From a virus, in IMG/VR virus record IMGVR_UViG_3300010883_007296, positions 1-28,817 of that record: a DNA stretch of 28,817 nucleotides; one strand, written 5' to 3'. A program made the translations under genes and the position numbers. The notes below the pieces were generated by a model. That model ran no database searches. It saw nothing but the letters and a program-made list of their open reading frames with translations, and had not been told where the DNA came from. Of the stretch, positions 5,305 through 28,697 are shown one piece after another (position 1 is the stretch's first letter; the number at the start of each line of letters is the position of its first letter).

Positions 5305-5372
5305 TTTCTTTCCTTGTTTTAAATTAAAATGCCACACTTCTGTTTCTAGGCAGTGGCCTCCCAGAGTAATTA

Positions 5373-5414
5373 AGCCGCTAGGGCAAAATCCTCATATGCA
5401 ATATTATCGTTTGC
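5373..5414 (-). other. tmRNA tag-peptide reading frame
   Basis: Fourteen codons, GCA through GCT, encode ANDNIAYEDFALAA and end in TAA at 5372-5370. The AND start and ALAA end match bacterial proteolysis tags; LAA at the C-terminus is the element ClpX recognises in E. coli. An A lies at -4 before the resume codon, as in the conserved upstream signal. Confidence 0.93.
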
Positions 5415-5500
5415 AATTATCGTTTTGTTCGCGTTAACCCAGCTTACATCGGGATAACTCCACATTCCTATTGACCAACTGTCGATCCTATTTCGTCCCC

Positions 5501-5694
5501 ATCATAAACACACGATTGTATTCTTCTTCAAAGCCTTCTTCATGTATGTAAACCTCATTGTTGTTCCACATACGTCTAAAGTAATAATTATAACTAGCTT
5601 CTATTGTTTCTGCAGTTACGTTAAGATGACCTTTAACGATATAAAATATCCTGCATTTCTCTTTGAAGTTTTCTATTTGTTCCTCATGTGTTTA
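5501..5694 (-). other. Intervening segment of tmRNA with open frame
   Basis: The 194 nt between the acceptor CCA and the coding-piece GGGGACG should be removed during maturation. One frame stays open for 67 codons, from just after the CCA-TAA junction (5691) to TAG at 5490-5488, which is inside the coding piece. It reads THEEQIENFKEK at first and ends NRVFMMGTK. The only ATG codons lie in its second half (codon 41 onward). An AGGAA precedes an ATA codon at position 6. It may be a relict or unusual small gene, or chance. Confidence 0.5.
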
Positions 5695-5762
5695 TGGTGG
5701 AGACGTCCGGTACTGCCCCGGAGTCCAGTCTGGCGTTGAGTTTGCTTCAACGTTACTCTTTA

Positions 5763-5791
5763 TTTATATAATACTATGTTAATAATGTCAA
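5763..5791 (-). promoter_or_regulatory. tmRNA promoter, sigma-70 type with late-box overlap
   Basis: Minus strand TTGACA at 5791-5786, 17-bp spacer, TATAAA at 5768-5763. The -10 region is part of a perfect TATAAATA (5768-5761), so the same site could serve host polymerase early and a T4-type late sigma later. Expected start is near 5756, at the head of the acceptor piece. Confidence 0.7.
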
Positions 5792-5800
5792 GAGCTTTTT

Positions 5801-6893: not shown

Positions 6894-7472
6894 CTAATAG
6901 AGTTGTTCTTTATCTCGCCATTCTCCAACAACATAGTTTATTATAACACTTTTTCGTATGCCGTCAACCACATTCTCCCTAACACCGTGAATTAATGGTG
7001 ATTTATTGTGACTTAACCAACCTGTATTATGTACAAATGGCACAGTTTGGAATATACCAACTTTTCTATGAATACTTGTTCCCCAAGCAGGCTTTCCACC
7101 TTGTAAGTATATTTGCATAGTAATTAGTTTTTCTGGAATATCAATATGTGGTTCTAGATAGAAACCAGCTGAGTCTTGACATAGCTCTACTCTCAAATGT
7201 CCATTGCCACAATCTACACCTGTTAGGTCTGTAAATTGTTTTCTCGTTTCTGCACTATCAAACTCTTCAAATAGTTTAGCAAGTACAGGAGTATGCATTC
7301 TTGATGCAAACTTACGGAAGTCATTTGCTCCGTCTCGTTTTCCTGTTATTGGTGCTTCTTTTGGTTCTGGAAAGTGTTGTATAACTCTACTTAAAATTTT
7401 ATCATCAAAGCAACTATGAATGTGCCACCATTCCTCTGGCTTATCCCATTTGGTGTGTGTTAGATTTAGCAT
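6894..7472 (-). CDS. 2-oxoglutarate/Fe(II)-dependent oxygenase
   Basis: 192 aa. The double-stranded beta-helix active site is visible: HID (H109, D111) and H162 (LIHGV) as iron ligands, and R173 (GIRKSV) as the 2-oxoglutarate anchor, with the usual spacing. The segment RVELCQDSAGFYLEPHID resembles prolyl-4-hydroxylase-like phage oxygenases. Such enzymes hydroxylate proteins, nucleic acids or small metabolites; the substrate here is unknown. The gene overlaps the radical SAM gene upstream by 7 nt, suggesting co-translation and perhaps a shared pathway. Confidence 0.8.
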   Translation of the reverse strand: MLNLTHTKWDKPEEWWHIHSCFDDKILSRVIQHFPEPKEAPITGKRDGANDFRKFASRMHTPVLAKLFEEFDSAETRKQFTDLTGVDCGNGHLRVELCQDSAGFYLEPHIDIPEKLITMQIYLQGGKPAWGTSIHRKVGIFQTVPFVHNTGWLSHNKSPLIHGVRENVVDGIRKSVIINYVVGEWRDKEQLY

Positions 7473-8692
7473 TCATAAACTTCCTTTCCTAATAATGGAT
7501 CGTAATCCATTAGGTTAACGCCTCTAAATTTGTCTTGTGCTTTACAATGTTGTACGAATGTATTCCATTGTGCAGGTACTGCTGGATTATTGAGTGCTCG
7601 TTGTGCATCTCTTAACATACCTTCTTCTATATCGTCTAACCATCCACTTTCAAATAGTTTTTCTATCTCGCTATTTGCTACTGCTTTAATAATGTCAGGA
7701 GCATGTCTTGCCTGGAAGTAATTTGGTCCTACTAGTATTCTATTATTAATATCAAAATTCATATCTCTTGTGTATGTAAAGAATTCATTTAATGAGGCGG
7801 CATTGTATAACTGGTAACTACTATTTAGACTTACCATAAGCCAATCAGTATTGTCTTTTGCATACTTACTTAGATCCTCTATACTGTTATGCATCTGATC
7901 CCATGTAAACACACCATTACTTCTCATGTATTCAAACATAGGACCAACAACATCTGTACTTAGATCCCAGTGAATCTGTTTAAAGTGTCTAAACTTATCT
8001 ATATCTGCTATTGAAGTTTTACTGCCATTAGTTGTTATAGTCATATGTATTTGTGATGGATCTGCATACTCATTTAGGATATCCATTGCTTTCCATATCT
8101 GATTGTCAATAAACGGTTCACCACCTGTTATCCATATACTTGTTAGATCTTGTAAACGGTGTTTGTTGTTCTTAATAAAATCCAGTACATTATTAACATT
8201 TTTGTATAATTCAGGCTCAAACTTAACTTTTTCAACTTCTTTACTGACTGCTTTCCATTCTGGAATAAGACTATTACTATAACGTGGACTACACATTCTG
8301 CATTTAAAGTTACATACATTATTAAAGTTTAGGAACATATGTCTTAATGTATTGCCTGTTAATTTTGGATTTGCAAAGGCCTCATCTCCGTCAAAGTTAA
8401 ATTTCTTCTTATGTTTTGCTTTAAGCCAGTTTTGTCTCTGACTCTTAACACCCATGTCTTCTTTACTTTTACAGTTAGCACAACCGGGTTCATCCCATTT
8501 GCCTTCCAACATACTCTTTCGTAACTTTTGAAAGTCTGGACTATCCCAATCCATGTTCTCTTCGTTACTCATAATCTCTTCACTCATCATACAACGAGTT
8601 AGTGTACCTGTTGGGTGTAGACTAATCGCAGTAAAAGGAATAGGACACCAAGTATCGCTATGCCTATTTGAGTCTTTAAATTCTTCTGTCAC
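7466..8692 (-). CDS. Radical SAM protein with N-terminal twitch-like domain
   Basis: 408 aa. The radical SAM cluster motif CNFKCRMC is at C127, C131 and C134, followed by the SAM-binding GGEPF (WITGGEPFIDN). Upstream of it, C16, C34, C71 and C74 in the pattern WCPIPF...GTLTRCM...GCANC look like the auxiliary-cluster (SPASM/twitch) module, here placed at the N-terminus instead of the usual C-terminus. Such enzymes use SAM-derived radicals to modify peptides or other molecules. Start ATG 8692 lies within the upstream gene (17-nt overlap). Substrate is unknown. Confidence 0.85.
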   Translation of the reverse strand: MTEEFKDSNRHSDTWCPIPFTAISLHPTGTLTRCMMSEEIMSNEENMDWDSPDFQKLRKSMLEGKWDEPGCANCKSKEDMGVKSQRQNWLKAKHKKKFNFDGDEAFANPKLTGNTLRHMFLNFNNVCNFKCRMCSPRYSNSLIPEWKAVSKEVEKVKFEPELYKNVNNVLDFIKNNKHRLQDLTSIWITGGEPFIDNQIWKAMDILNEYADPSQIHMTITTNGSKTSIADIDKFRHFKQIHWDLSTDVVGPMFEYMRSNGVFTWDQMHNSIEDLSKYAKDNTDWLMVSLNSSYQLYNAASLNEFFTYTRDMNFDINNRILVGPNYFQARHAPDIIKAVANSEIEKLFESGWLDDIEEGMLRDAQRALNNPAVPAQWNTFVQHCKAQDKFRGVNLMDYDPLLGKEVYEC

Positions 8693-10136: not shown

Positions 10137-10226
10137 TGGCGGATAAGGTAGGATTCGAACCCACGGAACGATTGCTCGTTCTCCGGATTAGTAATCCGGC
10201 GCTTTCGGCCACTCAGCCACTTATCC
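10137..10226 (-). tRNA. tRNA-Ser with anticodon ACT (reads AGT)
   Basis: 90 nt including encoded CCA. Acceptor stem GGATAAG/CTTATCC, discriminator G, a long variable arm GAACGA-GCAA-TCGTTC and T-arm GTGGG-TTCGAAT-CCTAC are all serine-tRNA features. The anticodon stem CCGGA/TCCGG closes the loop TTACTAA, so the anticodon is ACT, with A at position 34 where the standard AGY-reading serine tRNA has GCT. It would read AGT best, and AGC if A34 became inosine. Confidence 0.93.
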
Positions 10227-12702: not shown

Positions 12703-12780
12703 TGGTCGGAGTGGTAGGATTCGAACCTACGATCTCCTGGTCCCAAACCAGGCGCTTTAGCCAGACTAAGCTACACTCCG
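12703..12780 (-). tRNA. tRNA-Pro (anticodon TGG)
   Basis: 78 nt with encoded CCA. Acceptor CGGAGTG/CACTCCG, discriminator A, anticodon stem CCTGG/CCAGG with loop TTTGGGA giving anticodon TGG, and T-arm GTAGG-TTCGAAT-CCTAC. It lies 5 nt downstream of tRNA-Arg, so the two are likely processed from one transcript. Confidence 0.95.
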
Positions 12781-12785
12781 TGAAT

Positions 12786-12862
12786 TGGTCCGCTCTACAG
12801 GATTCGAACCTGTGACCTACGGCTTAGAAGGCCGTTGCTCTATCCAGCTGAGCTAAGAGCGG
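12786..12862 (-). tRNA. tRNA-Arg (anticodon TCT)
   Basis: 77 nt with encoded CCA. Acceptor CCGCTCT/AGAGCGG, discriminator A, anticodon stem ACGGC/GCCGT with loop CTTCTAA giving TCT, T-arm ACAGG-TTCGAAT-CCTGT. It reads AGA/AGG, codons favoured by an AT-rich phage. Its 5' 23 nt overlap the end of the upstream small gene. Confidence 0.95.
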
Positions 12863-13806: not shown

Positions 13807-13834
13807 AGTATACACTATTACACCGTCTTGTCAA
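13807..13834 (-). promoter_or_regulatory. Sigma-70-type promoter P4
   Basis: Minus strand TTGACA at 13834-13829, 16-bp spacer, TATACT at 13812-13807 followed by CTATATATA as at P3. Drives the leftward genes from 13780. It lies back to back with the start of the rightward radical SAM gene. Confidence 0.75.
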
Positions 13835-13837
13835 GCA

Positions 13838-13845
13838 CTAAATAC
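13838..13845 (+). promoter_or_regulatory. Possible late promoter box CTAAATAC, plus strand
   Basis: CTAAATAC ends 3 nt before the ATG of the radical SAM gene at 13849. If it acts as a late promoter, the transcript would be leaderless or begin inside the gene. Weak evidence. Confidence 0.3.
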
Positions 13846-13848
13846 AGT

Positions 13849-14508
13849 ATGAACCACAATAAATTGAGTCACAGTTTTGACTTTGCTCTAACAACCTATT
13901 GTCAAGCAAGATGTCGTAGTTGTGCAAGAACTAATGAACATACAGGTGAAAAAGAAGCCTGGCTTGAACTTAAACACATGGATTTAGATATATTTAAACA
14001 AAGACTAGCAGGTGCTGGTAATTTAGATATTCATGAAATTACATTTTGTGGTGAACTTGGTGATCCTATGATGCACCCACAAGTAGAACATTTTATAGTT
14101 GAAGCAGATAAACATGTTAAGACTACAATACATGTTAATACTAATGGAGGCTTAAGAAGTCCAAATTGGTATGCAAGAATGGCTCGTGACTATAGTCCCA
14201 GACTAAAAATTAAATGGGGTATTGATGGAACTGATCATGATACAAATTGGTTATATCGTGAAGGTGTTGATTGGCAACGAGCAATGGATAATATGACTGC
14301 TTGGTTTACAAATGGTGGACAGGGTGCCTGGCACTTTTTAATCTTTGATTGGAACTGGCATCAGATACCAGAGGCAGTTGACATGGCCAAACAAATTGGC
14401 TGTGAAATAGAATTTAAAATTAATCACAGGAACTGGGGTAAAATTACTGAAGATAATAAAGTGATTGCTTGGAGTTTATTAGAGGAGCATTATGACCAAT
14501 TGCATTAA
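13849..14508 (+). CDS. Radical SAM protein, catalytic half of split enzyme
   Basis: 219 aa from ATG 13849. The iron-sulfur motif YCQARCRSC gives C18, C22 and C25, followed by FCGELGDPMMHP (the GGEP-equivalent SAM site) and the TIM-barrel strands IHVNTNGG and IKWGIDGTD. There is no auxiliary-cluster domain at the end; it is supplied by the next frame, which overlaps by 17 nt. No Shine-Dalgarno is visible before this ATG. A TTG 21 nt upstream is possible but lies in promoter P4. This is the first gene of the only rightward operon. Substrate unknown. Confidence 0.8.
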   Translation: MNHNKLSHSFDFALTTYCQARCRSCARTNEHTGEKEAWLELKHMDLDIFKQRLAGAGNLDIHEITFCGELGDPMMHPQVEHFIVEADKHVKTTIHVNTNGGLRSPNWYARMARDYSPRLKIKWGIDGTDHDTNWLYREGVDWQRAMDNMTAWFTNGGQGAWHFLIFDWNWHQIPEAVDMAKQIGCEIEFKINHRNWGKITEDNKVIAWSLLEEHYDQLH

Positions 14509-14871: not shown

Positions 14872-15633
14872 ATGAATTGGAAACACGCCAAAATGTGTGC
14901 CGATGTAAGCAATTCGGTTTACAAAGCAGAAAAAATATGTTACACAGATATTGAATCTTATGTAGCAACAAAGACATCTTATAAGTTTATGGACGAAGAT
15001 GGTGCTCAGGGTTGCATGTTTAAACTTAGCAAAACAGAATGGGTTGTAGCCTTTAGAGGAACACAACCAGAAGAATTAGGCGATGTACTCGCAGACTTAA
15101 AAGCCTGGAGAAACATAAGTGAAACAAAAGGCAAAGTACATTCAGGTTTTAAAACAGAACTTGACAAGATATATGATGATGTGTTATCATACTTTAAGAC
15201 TAAAAAAGTAAAGAAGACTGATAAGGTTATTGTAACAGGACACAGTCTAGGAGCCGCAATGGCAACGTTGTGTGCTAGTAGACTAGCAGAAGCGGGCTAT
15301 GATGCTGTATTATATAACTTTGGTTCTCCACGTGTAGGTAACACAGATTGGGCAGAACAGTTTGATAATATAGAAGCACATCGTTTCGTTAACAATAATG
15401 ATGTAGTAACTAAAGTACCACCATACGGTTTGTTCACACATATAGGTGAACTACACTACATTAACTTTTATGGAAACATTCGTAAAAATACATGGTGGCA
15501 GAGATTTAAAGATCAAATGAGAGGACGTTGGAGAGCAATGTGTAAGTTCCAATTTTTCGACGGAGCATTTGATCACAGTATGGGTTTATATGCAGACAAA
15601 GTTAACAAGCACAAATTTAGAAATGACATTTGA
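14872..15633 (+). CDS. Class 3 lipase-like hydrolase
   Basis: 253 aa. The alpha/beta-hydrolase core of Lipase_3 is clear: oxyanion-side strand WVVAFRGTQPEE, nucleophile elbow GHSLGAA with S125, catalytic Asp D177 (NNNDVVTKVPP) and His H235 (FDHSMGLY). No signal peptide, so it acts in the cytoplasm or is released at lysis. It may cleave acyl esters of host membrane lipids. A purine-rich GGGGGGTATGG precedes the ATG. The last codons overlap the start of the next radical SAM gene by 11 nt. Confidence 0.9.
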   Translation: MNWKHAKMCADVSNSVYKAEKICYTDIESYVATKTSYKFMDEDGAQGCMFKLSKTEWVVAFRGTQPEELGDVLADLKAWRNISETKGKVHSGFKTELDKIYDDVLSYFKTKKVKKTDKVIVTGHSLGAAMATLCASRLAEAGYDAVLYNFGSPRVGNTDWAEQFDNIEAHRFVNNNDVVTKVPPYGLFTHIGELHYINFYGNIRKNTWWQRFKDQMRGRWRAMCKFQFFDGAFDHSMGLYADKVNKHKFRNDI

Positions 15634-16474
15634 CGTTGAAGGGCACATTGCCAGTCGACACAATAGACATCAGAGTGCCAATATACATAGCAAAAACTTT
15701 CCAGGGTTAGCGACTATAGAGCTTAATATAACAGAGCTCTGTAATCGCACCTGTAGTTTTTGTCCCAGACATGATGAGAATATATATCCAAACCAAAAAT
15801 TATTCATGGAACTTTCAACAGTAGAGAAACTTACCAATGAATTACTAGCTAGTGATTGGTATGGTGACATACACATTACAGGCTTTGGAGAACCTCATAC
15901 CCATCCTAAACTAAAGGAGATAGTTGCAATACTTAGTGAAGCAAATGTATTCATTGAGATAACAACAAATGGTGATAGACTAATTGATAGTGATATTTCA
16001 TATACTCAGAAACTCTTTAGAGAAGGTTTAGATATGCTAACTGTTGATTGTTATGATGGAGATCAACAGTATGCAAGTCGTGTACTTGCTATGCAATCGC
16101 TCAAAGGTAAACACAGACTGCGTAAACATTATGATACTGGTAATGCACAAGAACTAATAACTGAATATGGATTTAACAATCGGGGAGGTTTATTAGGTGG
16201 TGCAGGAATACAGAACCAATGCTATTTGCCATTCTATAAAACACTAATTGATTGGGATGGTGGAATGGTTCTATGTTGTAATGACTGGCATAGACAAGCA
16301 GGAACAATGGGTAACATTGTTACAGAAAGTTTAGAGCTGTGTTGGAATAGTGATAAGTTAAAACTTATTAGAGCAGAACTTGCTCAAGGACTACGTCGTG
16401 GTGTTTGTGCTGACTGTAGTATTGTTGGTACTAAGTTTGGTAGTGACAGTTTTCTTCTTCACACGCAGGATTAG
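15623..16474 (+). CDS. Radical SAM/SPASM protein
   Basis: 283 aa from ATG 15623, which overlaps the lipase stop; the longer frame from 15569 lies inside the lipase gene. C40, C44 and C47 in LCNRTCSFC bind the SAM cluster, and GFGEPHTHP is the SAM-site motif. The C-terminal SPASM-like region holds C in NQCYLPF, LCCNDW and the final VCADC. It resembles the peptide-modifying and tungsten-cofactor-like radical SAM groups in layout. Its 3' end overlaps the convergent ligase-like gene by 84 bp. Confidence 0.85.
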   Translation: MTFDVEGHIASRHNRHQSANIHSKNFPGLATIELNITELCNRTCSFCPRHDENIYPNQKLFMELSTVEKLTNELLASDWYGDIHITGFGEPHTHPKLKEIVAILSEANVFIEITTNGDRLIDSDISYTQKLFREGLDMLTVDCYDGDQQYASRVLAMQSLKGKHRLRKHYDTGNAQELITEYGFNNRGGLLGGAGIQNQCYLPFYKTLIDWDGGMVLCCNDWHRQAGTMGNIVTESLELCWNSDKLKLIRAELAQGLRRGVCADCSIVGTKFGSDSFLLHTQD

Positions 16475-17395
16475 TTCATCGTTACTAGGTCCATTTTTCC
16501 AAGTACCATTTAAATTTTTAACAACAATATCAGATTTAATCTCCTTGGCTGCCTTTCTGGCATTACTCCAGGAAGTTACCTTATTACATATTGCTATACT
16601 ATAGCAGGGTTTTGGTGTTTTTTCTGATGCAAGTAACCACATATGTTCAAGTCCATTGAATCTCCAGTTATATCCTAATCTATTATCCTCGCCCTTAACG
16701 AAACCATCGTAACGTATTACGTCCCATATAACAAAACGTTTACCTTTTGCTGTTTTTCTATAGCAACCGTCAAATACTGTTGGTTGATTTTGTGCAAGAT
16801 GAGCAAATTCCTCTGCATATTCTTCAAAGCCAGTTAGTATTGTACCTTGTTGATCTCTGAACTCAATAGTATTCATTCTAACAATAATGTTAATTCTAGT
16901 ACCTTTATACTTTGGCTGGCCAACTGCTGGAAAAGTAATACGTTTCTCAAGTTCAGTTGTATGCTCTATTGCATTTTGTATTGGATAAGTTGGAATATAT
17001 CCAGGCCATACATTATTAATTGTATCAATATCAATGCCAACCCCAATATCTTTTTTAATCATTCCTAAGAATAATTCAGCTTCCTGTTCATTAATATGTG
17101 TGAGTACTAGATTACAGGCAAATGTTGCTTCTTGATAACCCAGTTTATTCTGATATAGATCGTCTGCAACGTGCATAAACTTACTAATACCCATACCACC
17201 ATCCATACCAAACTTAGTTTTTTGTGGGTGGTATTCGTCCATTCCGAATACAATCATTGGATTATAGGTATAGTAGAGTATGTGTTTAAAAAGTGTATCA
17301 GTACTATAACGTTGTAGTACTTCCTGCTTCTGTTCCTGTGTTTCCGCTTCAATTAACTTATCAGCTATAAAACGAATCATTGCAATTTTTGACAT
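16391..17395 (-). CDS. T4-type DNA-ligase-like protein with degenerate motifs
   Basis: 334 aa from ATG 17395 after AAAGG. The N-terminal region (FLGMIKKDIGVGIDIDTINNVWPGYIPTYP) and order of motifs are those of ATP-dependent DNA ligases. Motif I, normally KxDG, reads K162-Y-K-G; motif III, normally DGE, reads DGC (209-211); motif IIIa is FVIWDVI; motif IV, normally EGxVxK, reads SDIVVK; motif V LRVKKK is kept. Loss of the three acidic residues suggests altered or absent nick-sealing activity, perhaps a binding role. The Thr/Ser/Asn-rich C-terminal tail is read from the strand opposite the convergent radical SAM gene. Confidence 0.75.
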   Translation of the reverse strand: MSKIAMIRFIADKLIEAETQEQKQEVLQRYSTDTLFKHILYYTYNPMIVFGMDEYHPQKTKFGMDGGMGISKFMHVADDLYQNKLGYQEATFACNLVLTHINEQEAELFLGMIKKDIGVGIDIDTINNVWPGYIPTYPIQNAIEHTTELEKRITFPAVGQPKYKGTRINIIVRMNTIEFRDQQGTILTGFEEYAEEFAHLAQNQPTVFDGCYRKTAKGKRFVIWDVIRYDGFVKGEDNRLGYNWRFNGLEHMWLLASEKTPKPCYSIAICNKVTSWSNARKAAKEIKSDIVVKNLNGTWKNGPSNDELILRVKKKTVTTKLSTNNTTVSTNTTT

Positions 17396-17417
17396 AATAC
17401 TATACCTTTTGTTAATA

Positions 17418-17425
17418 GTATTTAT
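17418..17425 (-). promoter_or_regulatory. Late promoter box ATAAATAC before ligase-like gene
   Basis: Minus strand CATAAATACTA, 22 nt upstream of the ligase-like ATG and just after a terminator. The same ATAAATACTA occurs before the holin and hsp20 genes. Confidence 0.45.
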
Positions 17426-17445
17426 GTTAGTAGTTAATGCTCTGA

Positions 17446-17474
17446 TGCAAAAATAGAGCCCTAAGACTCTATTT
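17446..17474 (-). terminator. Rho-independent terminator
   Basis: Minus strand AAATAGAG (17474-17467) and CTCTATTT (17458-17451) form an 8-bp stem with 8-nt loop, followed by TT in a run of five T. It ends the small-protein cluster transcribed from 18252. Confidence 0.7.
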
Positions 17475-17498
17475 CCATTCACATTATTTTAATATTCT

Positions 17499-27560: not shown

Positions 27561-28697
27561 CTATCTGCTGGATTGTTGCTTTTTAATCCAATTTTGTGCT
27601 ATACCACTCTTGGGTGGTGATTTAATAAATTGTGTTAGACGTTTATATATTTCATTTGTACCTGCGACCGAATCTGCACTATCACTATTATCCATGATGT
27701 ACATATGTTCATTAAAGTAACTTGCAAACCTGCCGATGTTTTTCTGTACATCGCTCCACATTTTAACAATCATATCTTCCGGTAGACTTCTCTGACGTTT
27801 TTCGTTACGATCTCTGGCTGTTTCTATATCTGTATTAACAAATACCATTGCAACTTCGTAACCAATTTTCTTTAGTCTTGTTGCTTGACTGGTAATCTTT
27901 TCATAGTCTTTGCCAGTACCGTCCAGTACTATACCCAGGCGTTCATTCGTATATTGAACAGTCTGTTTCTGTACTACATTCTTTGCTTTGTCACGAAGTT
28001 CCTGTCCAGCTGGTGACATAATATTATCTGGGGTAGGTTCCATTTCAGCCCATCGCATATAAGTTTCAAATGCACTATCGGAGTTAAGTAATTTTAATCC
28101 CATTGAAGTAGTAACACCTGTATCTCTAACAACAAAACTCTTACCACTACCAGGCCCACCCGCTAGGAATACTGCTTTAAATATTCCGGGATCGTTAACA
28201 CCTTCCATTACTTTCAAGTCTTGATCTTTTGCAAACTTGGCCGCGGCTGGTTTTATTAGAACAAAACTTATACTTCCATCTTCGTCACGTGATGTTGCAA
28301 CCCAGCCAATTTTACTTGCCCATTGTTTAGCAAACCTAGCATATAACTTGTATCTATTCTTACTGTCATCTGCTTGTTTAGATGCATTGAATGTTATCTT
28401 TTGTACATCATCTTCATCTACTGATTTCCACCATTCAAGTATACCTGCTTGTATTGTGGCAAATATTCTAAATTCATCACCAGTACCGGTTGCTTTCATT
28501 GTAGCACCCATACCCTTTGTGTCTGACTTTGAAAACTCTATATTGTAATAGCCTTCACCATCATCGTCGGTAATGTCTATAAACAGTTTACTACCGTCTG
28601 GTAGTTGAGCAGACCCTTCCCATGCCTCTTGTGTTTTTTGAAACCAATTGACTGGATAAGGATCGTTAAATGCTTCTGTAATTTCACTTATTTTCAT
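27561..28697 (-). CDS. P-loop kinase, zeta-toxin-like, with N-terminal domain
   Basis: 378 aa. Walker A GGPGSGKS at 180-187, then NSDSAFE (like the zeta-toxin/kinase D strand), an Arg-rich lid (ARDRNEKRQRS) and the segment GIVLDGTGKDY. This fits the zeta-toxin / polynucleotide-kinase-like P-loop group. The 165-residue N-terminal domain (MKISEITEAFND...) contains a beta-rich region (LPDGSKLFIDITDDDGEGYYNIEFSK) of unknown role. Substrate could be a nucleotide sugar, RNA end or protein. GGGGAGAAAATA precedes the ATG. Confidence 0.75.
   Translation of the reverse strand: MKISEITEAFNDPYPVNWFQKTQEAWEGSAQLPDGSKLFIDITDDDGEGYYNIEFSKSDTKGMGATMKATGTGDEFRIFATIQAGILEWWKSVDEDDVQKITFNASKQADDSKNRYKLYARFAKQWASKIGWVATSRDEDGSISFVLIKPAAAKFAKDQDLKVMEGVNDPGIFKAVFLAGGPGSGKSFVVRDTGVTTSMGLKLLNSDSAFETYMRWAEMEPTPDNIMSPAGQELRDKAKNVVQKQTVQYTNERLGIVLDGTGKDYEKITSQATRLKKIGYEVAMVFVNTDIETARDRNEKRQRSLPEDMIVKMWSDVQKNIGRFASYFNEHMYIMDNSDSADSVAGTNEIYKRLTQFIKSPPKSGIAQNWIKKQQSSR

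Follow-up and report, generated by a model that had tools for sequence, protein, structure and literature searches.

What does a phage place between the two pieces of a permuted tmRNA? Few bacterial RNAs have been studied as well as tmRNA, whose permuted form is regarded as a pair of RNA pieces with a disposable spacer between them. The window analysed here, a linear IMG/VR virus contig of 28,817 bp from a phage of marine type, contains such a gene, with a spacer (IVS) of 194 nt. An earlier note, made from the letters of the window, had recognised the tmRNA and treated the IVS (5694–5501) as a plain spacer, overlooking a conserved protein gene there (5676–5488). We consider it probable (about 85%) that a single transcription unit here yields both a permuted phage tmRNA and a 62-aa three-helix protein whose gene is nested in the removed segment. 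Sequence comparison shows a tmRNA with a compensating acceptor pair, protein-level selection on the IVS reading frame, homologues of the predicted nested protein both in IVSs and free-standing, and about 20 other conserved clusters of nested ORFs.

The features of the locus, in the order of transcription, are as follows.

5763–5791, minus strand: predicted σ70-like promoter of the whole unit, with TTGACA at 5791–5786, TATAAA at 5768–5763 and a spacing of 17 (direct reading).
5695–5756, minus strand: acceptor (tRNA-like 3′) piece, 5′ end approximate (RF04321 match from 5756), 3′ end at the encoded CCA.
5501–5694, minus strand: IVS, 194 nt, between the CCA and the acceptor 5′ strand, not in the mature tmRNA of the permuted family.
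5684–5694, minus strand: 5′ arm of the IVS-end helix, TAAACACATGA, pairing with 5515–5505.
5681–5685, minus strand: Shine-Dalgarno-like GAGGA, partly inside the IVS-end helix (direct reading; kept in L002 and L003).
5488–5676, minus strand: predicted nested gene for a 62-aa protein, AUA as putative start at 5676–5674, stop TAG at 5490–5488 (homologues, substitution tests and start alignment).
5505–5515, minus strand: 3′ arm of the IVS-end helix, TCGTGTGTTTA, pairing with 5694–5684.
5340–5500, minus strand: coding (mRNA-like) piece, starting GGGGACGAAATAGGATCGAC, 3′ end approximate (alpha_tmRNA match to 5328; Rfam and ARAGORN).
5370–5414, minus strand: tag reading frame, ANDNIAYEDFALAA plus stop (ARAGORN).

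ARAGORN and Rfam agree that the minus strand at 5791–5328 is a circularly permuted tmRNA of the alphaproteobacterial type, bearing out the central claim of the earlier note. ARAGORN calls a permuted tmRNA at 5787–5279 (minus strand), and two Rfam models match the minus strand over their full length: RF04321 (tmRNA_permuted) at 5756–5370 with 105.5 bits (gathering 47, E 6.8e-20), and RF01849 (alpha_tmRNA), against which the note had proposed a search, at 5795–5328 with 85.7 bits (gathering 50). The order of the pieces, acceptor piece, IVS and coding piece, is that of RF04321. Direct reading gives a 7-bp acceptor stem, GGGGACG (5500–5494) with CGTCTCC (5705–5699), in which the third pair is G-U, the known alanine identity pair; it also gives a discriminator A, a CCA encoded at 5697–5695, and GGATCGAC. 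The tag frame ends in hydrophobic ALAA. The stem, its G-U pair, the encoded CCA, the tag ending, the boundaries at 5695 and 5500 and the consensus promoter at 5791–5763 are all as the note had them, but its reading of GGCAGTA as a departing T-loop is wrong, the alpha_tmRNA consensus at this place being GGCgGUA, so that the sequence is typical of the family. Furthermore, the fifth acceptor pair covaries, A-U in the window being replaced by G-C in L005–L010 (GGGGGCG/CGCCTCC), from which we infer that the acceptor and coding pieces pair across the 194-nt gap. A TTGACA-N17-TATAAA-type element likewise lies 5′ of the acceptor piece in nine related tmRNA loci (L002–L010) and in the cultured phage Melnitz. 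No group I intron of Rfam matches within the window.

The tmRNA might nevertheless be dead or a decoy, retained solely because it supplies the nested gene with a leader and processing signals. SmpB was not found in the 13 large phage contigs searched, nor in Melnitz, so tmRNA function in these phages would need host SmpB, which is presumed for that reason; in addition, the tmRNA of phage DS6A, which has the tRNA-like domain only, has been discussed as an inhibitor (PMC4131195). Against this, the tag frame, the compensated acceptor stem and the CCA are kept, the loci score above the gathering threshold, and in many phages the tmRNA has a short IVS that contains no nested gene. We regard a dead or decoy tmRNA as unlikely.

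A comparison of the window DNA and its tmRNA region with named phages gave tRNA matches only and no tmRNA match. The window encodes three tRNAs on the minus strand, tRNA-Ser(act) at 10137–10226, tRNA-Pro(tgg) at 12703–12780 and tRNA-Arg(tct) at 12786–12862, the last nearly identical to the tRNA-Arg of several gammaproteobacterial phages. It also carries three radical-SAM-like genes (7466–8692, minus strand; 13828–14508 and 15569–16474, plus strand), an ATP-dependent DNA ligase-like gene (16391–17482, minus strand) and a polynucleotide-kinase/ATPase-like gene (27561–28697, minus strand).

On the strand of the tmRNA, the IVS of the window forms a single open frame, and a search with its translation matched ten viral loci. 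Nine of these (L002–L010), at 70–99% amino-acid identity, carry the frame between the CCA and the GGGG of a permuted tmRNA; the tenth (L011) lies outside any tmRNA. More distant homologues, retrieved by a profile search, are free-standing phage genes with ordinary starts, several of which overlap the 3′ end of the upstream gene; one of the free-standing homologues (L167) overlaps a gene that we take to be RegA-like. The acceptor pieces of the window and L003 agree at all of 75 nt, while their IVSs differ at 22 of 194 sites; the differences fall mainly on third codon positions (7, 2 and 13 at the first, second and third), with an NG86 pN/pS of 0.18 in the nested frame. In substitution simulations, the observed amino-acid changes were fewer than simulated in four of four window-clade pairs (P = 0.006, 0.010, 0.0017 and 0.0007). 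The length of the window ORF taken alone is not significant by shuffling (p = 0.24), because the ORF has a non-ATG start, and the predicted coding status of the window frame rests on the homologues and the substitution pattern. Together they are sequence-level evidence that the IVS reading frame is under protein-level selection.

AlphaFold2 models the nested protein as three helices with a mean pLDDT of 77.7. Searches against Pfam, PHROGs, PDB profiles and Foldseek gave no match above cut-off and no credible relative, and named phages and 84,980 prokaryote genomes gave no match. A match to a BEN-domain chain (E 0.008, 35 residues) was not trusted.

The start of the nested gene is the weakest link. 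Throughout the window clade there is no ATG, GTG or TTG before residue 41 of the open frame. In the alignment, the window clade has ATA (ATT in L010) at the place where L124, L282 and L308 have ATG and L141 has TTG; L281 and L307 also start with ATG. A GAGGA sits a few bases 5′ of the window ATA. AUA initiation is rare, IF3 normally rejecting AUA, and the AUA start of the nested gene is here taken as putative, from the alignment. Two other entries into the frame were ruled out: a start at the out-of-frame ATG at 5687–5685 followed by a frameshift, as L003 has no such ATG, and translation entering from upstream, as an in-frame TAA directly follows the CCA. The missing standard start, with ATA or ATT in its stead, could also mark the window-clade ORFs as recently captured genes in decay. 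Yet the frame is intact and free of stops across a clade of 70–99% amino-acid identity, the substitutions conserve amino acids among members that all lack ATG, and GAGGA is kept in the closest members, so that decay appears quite improbable.

Similar nested genes recur in other phage tmRNAs. In an exact-motif sample of 117 viral and 113 alphaproteobacterial tmRNA loci, drawn from the matches listed, the median IVS among these matches is 84 nt in viruses (n = 117) and 30 nt in bacteria (n = 113, maximum 116), and IVSs of at least 130 nt occur, again among the matches listed, in 29 of 117 viral and 0 of 113 alphaproteobacterial loci (Fisher 6e-10). Further long viral IVSs were added by length-targeted scans, giving 145 distinct IVSs of at least 130 nt, and a sense start-to-stop ORF fills at least 70% of the IVS in 115 of these, an antisense ORF in 3. 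BLAST clustering grouped the IVS ORFs into 21 multi-member clusters, of which some may be merged or split because the IVS ends are conserved; most have an ATG preceded by a Shine-Dalgarno-like motif. For the majority of the clusters examined, substitution tests speak for coding, with P below 0.01 in most clusters other than that of the window. One cluster is Pfam DUF6356 (46 bits against a cut-off of 24.4), another scores just under the DUF2061 cut-off, and many of the nested ORFs look like small membrane proteins. Nearly all IVSs of 263–385 nt contain ORFs of 72–117 aa. The conserved clusters take 32 of the 117 viral loci of the motif sample, a rough rate among the matches listed. Predicted nested genes are therefore general in phage tmRNA IVSs, with many unrelated small genes in more than 100 distinct tmRNA genes.

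About one-fifth of the long IVSs lack such an ORF, as do the IVSs of Rhodobacter and Ruegeria phages. The latter (L447, L450, L451, L452 and L454) measure about 97–111 nt and have strongly pairing ends and no evident gene; here a structured RNA may stand in place of a protein gene. In two of these loci, from Ruegeria phages DSS3P8 and vB_RpoS-V10, a GOLLD RNA lies just upstream of the permuted tmRNA (L447 45–478, 150.7 bits; L450 45–478, 151.4 bits; cut-off 150) and is unannotated in both stretches. The annotation of phage RcRudolph places a 'hypothetical protein' over the tmRNA (L452 625–960), which is probably a miscalled gene.

These comparisons bear on two other accounts of the window IVS. 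If the 194-nt spacer were a long non-coding IVS that happens to be open, the absence of an ATG from the window-clade frame would be unsurprising, and bacterial IVSs are short and, to our knowledge, not coding; this account is contradicted, however, by the protein-level homologues in nine tmRNA loci and in free-standing genes, by the amino-acid selection, and by the excess of sense over antisense ORFs in long IVSs, and we give it very little credence. Alternatively, the real gene could lie on the opposite strand, where a 65-aa ATG ORF (5542–5739, plus strand) exists in a frame that is open in several relatives. The antisense pN/pS is lowish in some pairs (0.28), as is expected from codon-phase coupling, so that any one pair has less power. 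The minus frame is nevertheless the one used by the free-standing homologues and by those relatives that start with ATG, the antisense frame is broken in L010 (longest piece 41 aa), its pN/pS is above that of the sense frame, and antisense ORFs are rare over all loci; an opposite-strand gene is thus highly improbable.

The ends of viral IVSs pair over a mean of 10.1 bp, compared with 5.3 when halves are swapped between loci and 3.7 after shuffling. The helix usually begins right after the CCA and stops four bases before the GGGG, and folding of the window precursor also gives it (z −3.7). Nested ORFs end in two main places, at a TGA one base before the RNase P site (50 cases) or at a TAG in the coding piece (37 cases). 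The window belongs to the latter class; its TAG is found in the mature coding piece, 10 nt from the start of that piece (GGGGACGAAATAG).

The layout suggests how the two products could be made. A single promoter would drive a precursor, and the template on which ribosomes read the nested gene would be either this precursor before cutting or the excised IVS, kept together by the helix at its ends. Both tmRNA pieces would be freed by RNase P and 3′ processing. Judging from known tmRNA processing, RNase P would cut before the GGGG, which in the window class would remove the nested stop codon and so turn the message nonstop; to reach the end of the window gene, a ribosome would have to open the acceptor stem. 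Because the nested stop lies inside the mature coding piece, maturation and translation should compete, and the truncated nested product would itself become a tagging target, by a logic like that of arfA, whose nonstop mRNA is under the control of trans-translation.

In evolutionary terms, the simplest view is of an IVS that can take up insertions and serves phages as a compact site for small genes. Such an expression slot is the plainest reading, and a regulatory reading would be the novel case. In the regulatory reading, nested translation and tmRNA maturation would be mutually exclusive fates, and the released mature tmRNA would tag and remove the nested product, forming a self-sensing switch that, if real, confines the small protein largely to conditions in which tmRNA processing or the rescue capacity of the host runs short. 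We regard this switch as possible but doubtful; the nonstop design may be a chance of frame rather than selection, because the stops partly follow conserved IVS-end and coding-piece sequence. The spacer of phage tmRNAs would regularly be a protein gene, so that the processing of a non-coding RNA would at the same time destroy an mRNA or set it free. The nested genes would form a hidden set of small phage proteins missed by annotation and a new gene architecture for compact genomes, and would tie RNase P processing to translation and ribosome rescue in a way that is open to test.

A permuted tmRNA in a phage is, taken alone, ordinary and not new, and the view of the earlier note that it is unusual does not hold. 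PMC9004378 (2022) reports 402 phages that carry tmRNA genes; of the 133 unique structures among them, 53 are two-piece by ARAGORN, and 50 of those 53 come from marine or aquatic phages; our IMG/VR scan found at least 120 loci bearing the permuted-tmRNA motif, and the tmRNA database update (PMC11915505), which introduced RF04321, holds 79 phage sequences. The note's suggestion that the tmRNA points to the host stands only weakly, the phage tag being unlike SAR11 tags (ANESYAIAA). In the open literature covered, where absence is not proof, we found no report of protein genes within permuted-tmRNA IVSs; protein genes nested in phage tmRNA IVSs have apparently not been described before.

Melnitz (L446), a phage of Methylophilales H5P1, provides a cultured example. 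Its 142-nt IVS contains an ORF at about 1793–1969 of L446 (MFKWLSKTRLVVITRDYFRERNRKADAKIPKYLSG...), which extends into the coding piece, and the annotation at this place is 'SsrA' only. Gene 85 of Melnitz, free-standing directly upstream of the tmRNA, is a homologue of another nested cluster (MEIIWHILL...), so that one and the same predicted protein can be nested in the tmRNA or encoded next to it, depending on the phage. A glutamine riboswitch (L446 2107–2155), confirmed at 52.8 bits, follows the Melnitz tmRNA immediately downstream.

The window tmRNA shares with the families RF04321 and RF01849 the gene order, the acceptor stem with G-U at pair 3, the CCA, the tag frame and the position of the IVS, and differs in the IVS itself, which is 194 nt long and holds a predicted protein gene, whereas the 113 alphaproteobacterial controls among the matches listed reach at most 116 nt. 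Melnitz and its relatives (PMC9004378) are likewise marine phages with a tmRNA of the alphaproteobacterial type and a similar tag and promoter layout; the passages of that paper covered here treat a glutamine riboswitch, not an IVS gene, and the unannotated IVS ORF of Melnitz belongs to another cluster than that of the window. Intron-form tmRNA (PMC11915505), in which a group I intron in the T-loop carries the gene of a homing endonuclease, likewise has a protein gene in a removed precursor segment, but this locus has neither group I intron nor endonuclease, and removal would proceed by the tRNA-type processing of a permuted gene. Extra sequence in a permuted IVS is also on record, as single cases of one tRNA gene and one repetitive element (PMC11915505); neither of the two is a protein gene, and they do not form a pattern that recurs in phages. 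Finally, arfA may be compared for the way it works, with no sequence relation shown: there too a message is turned nonstop and hence opened to tagging, while in the window the cut would be the tmRNA's own maturation.
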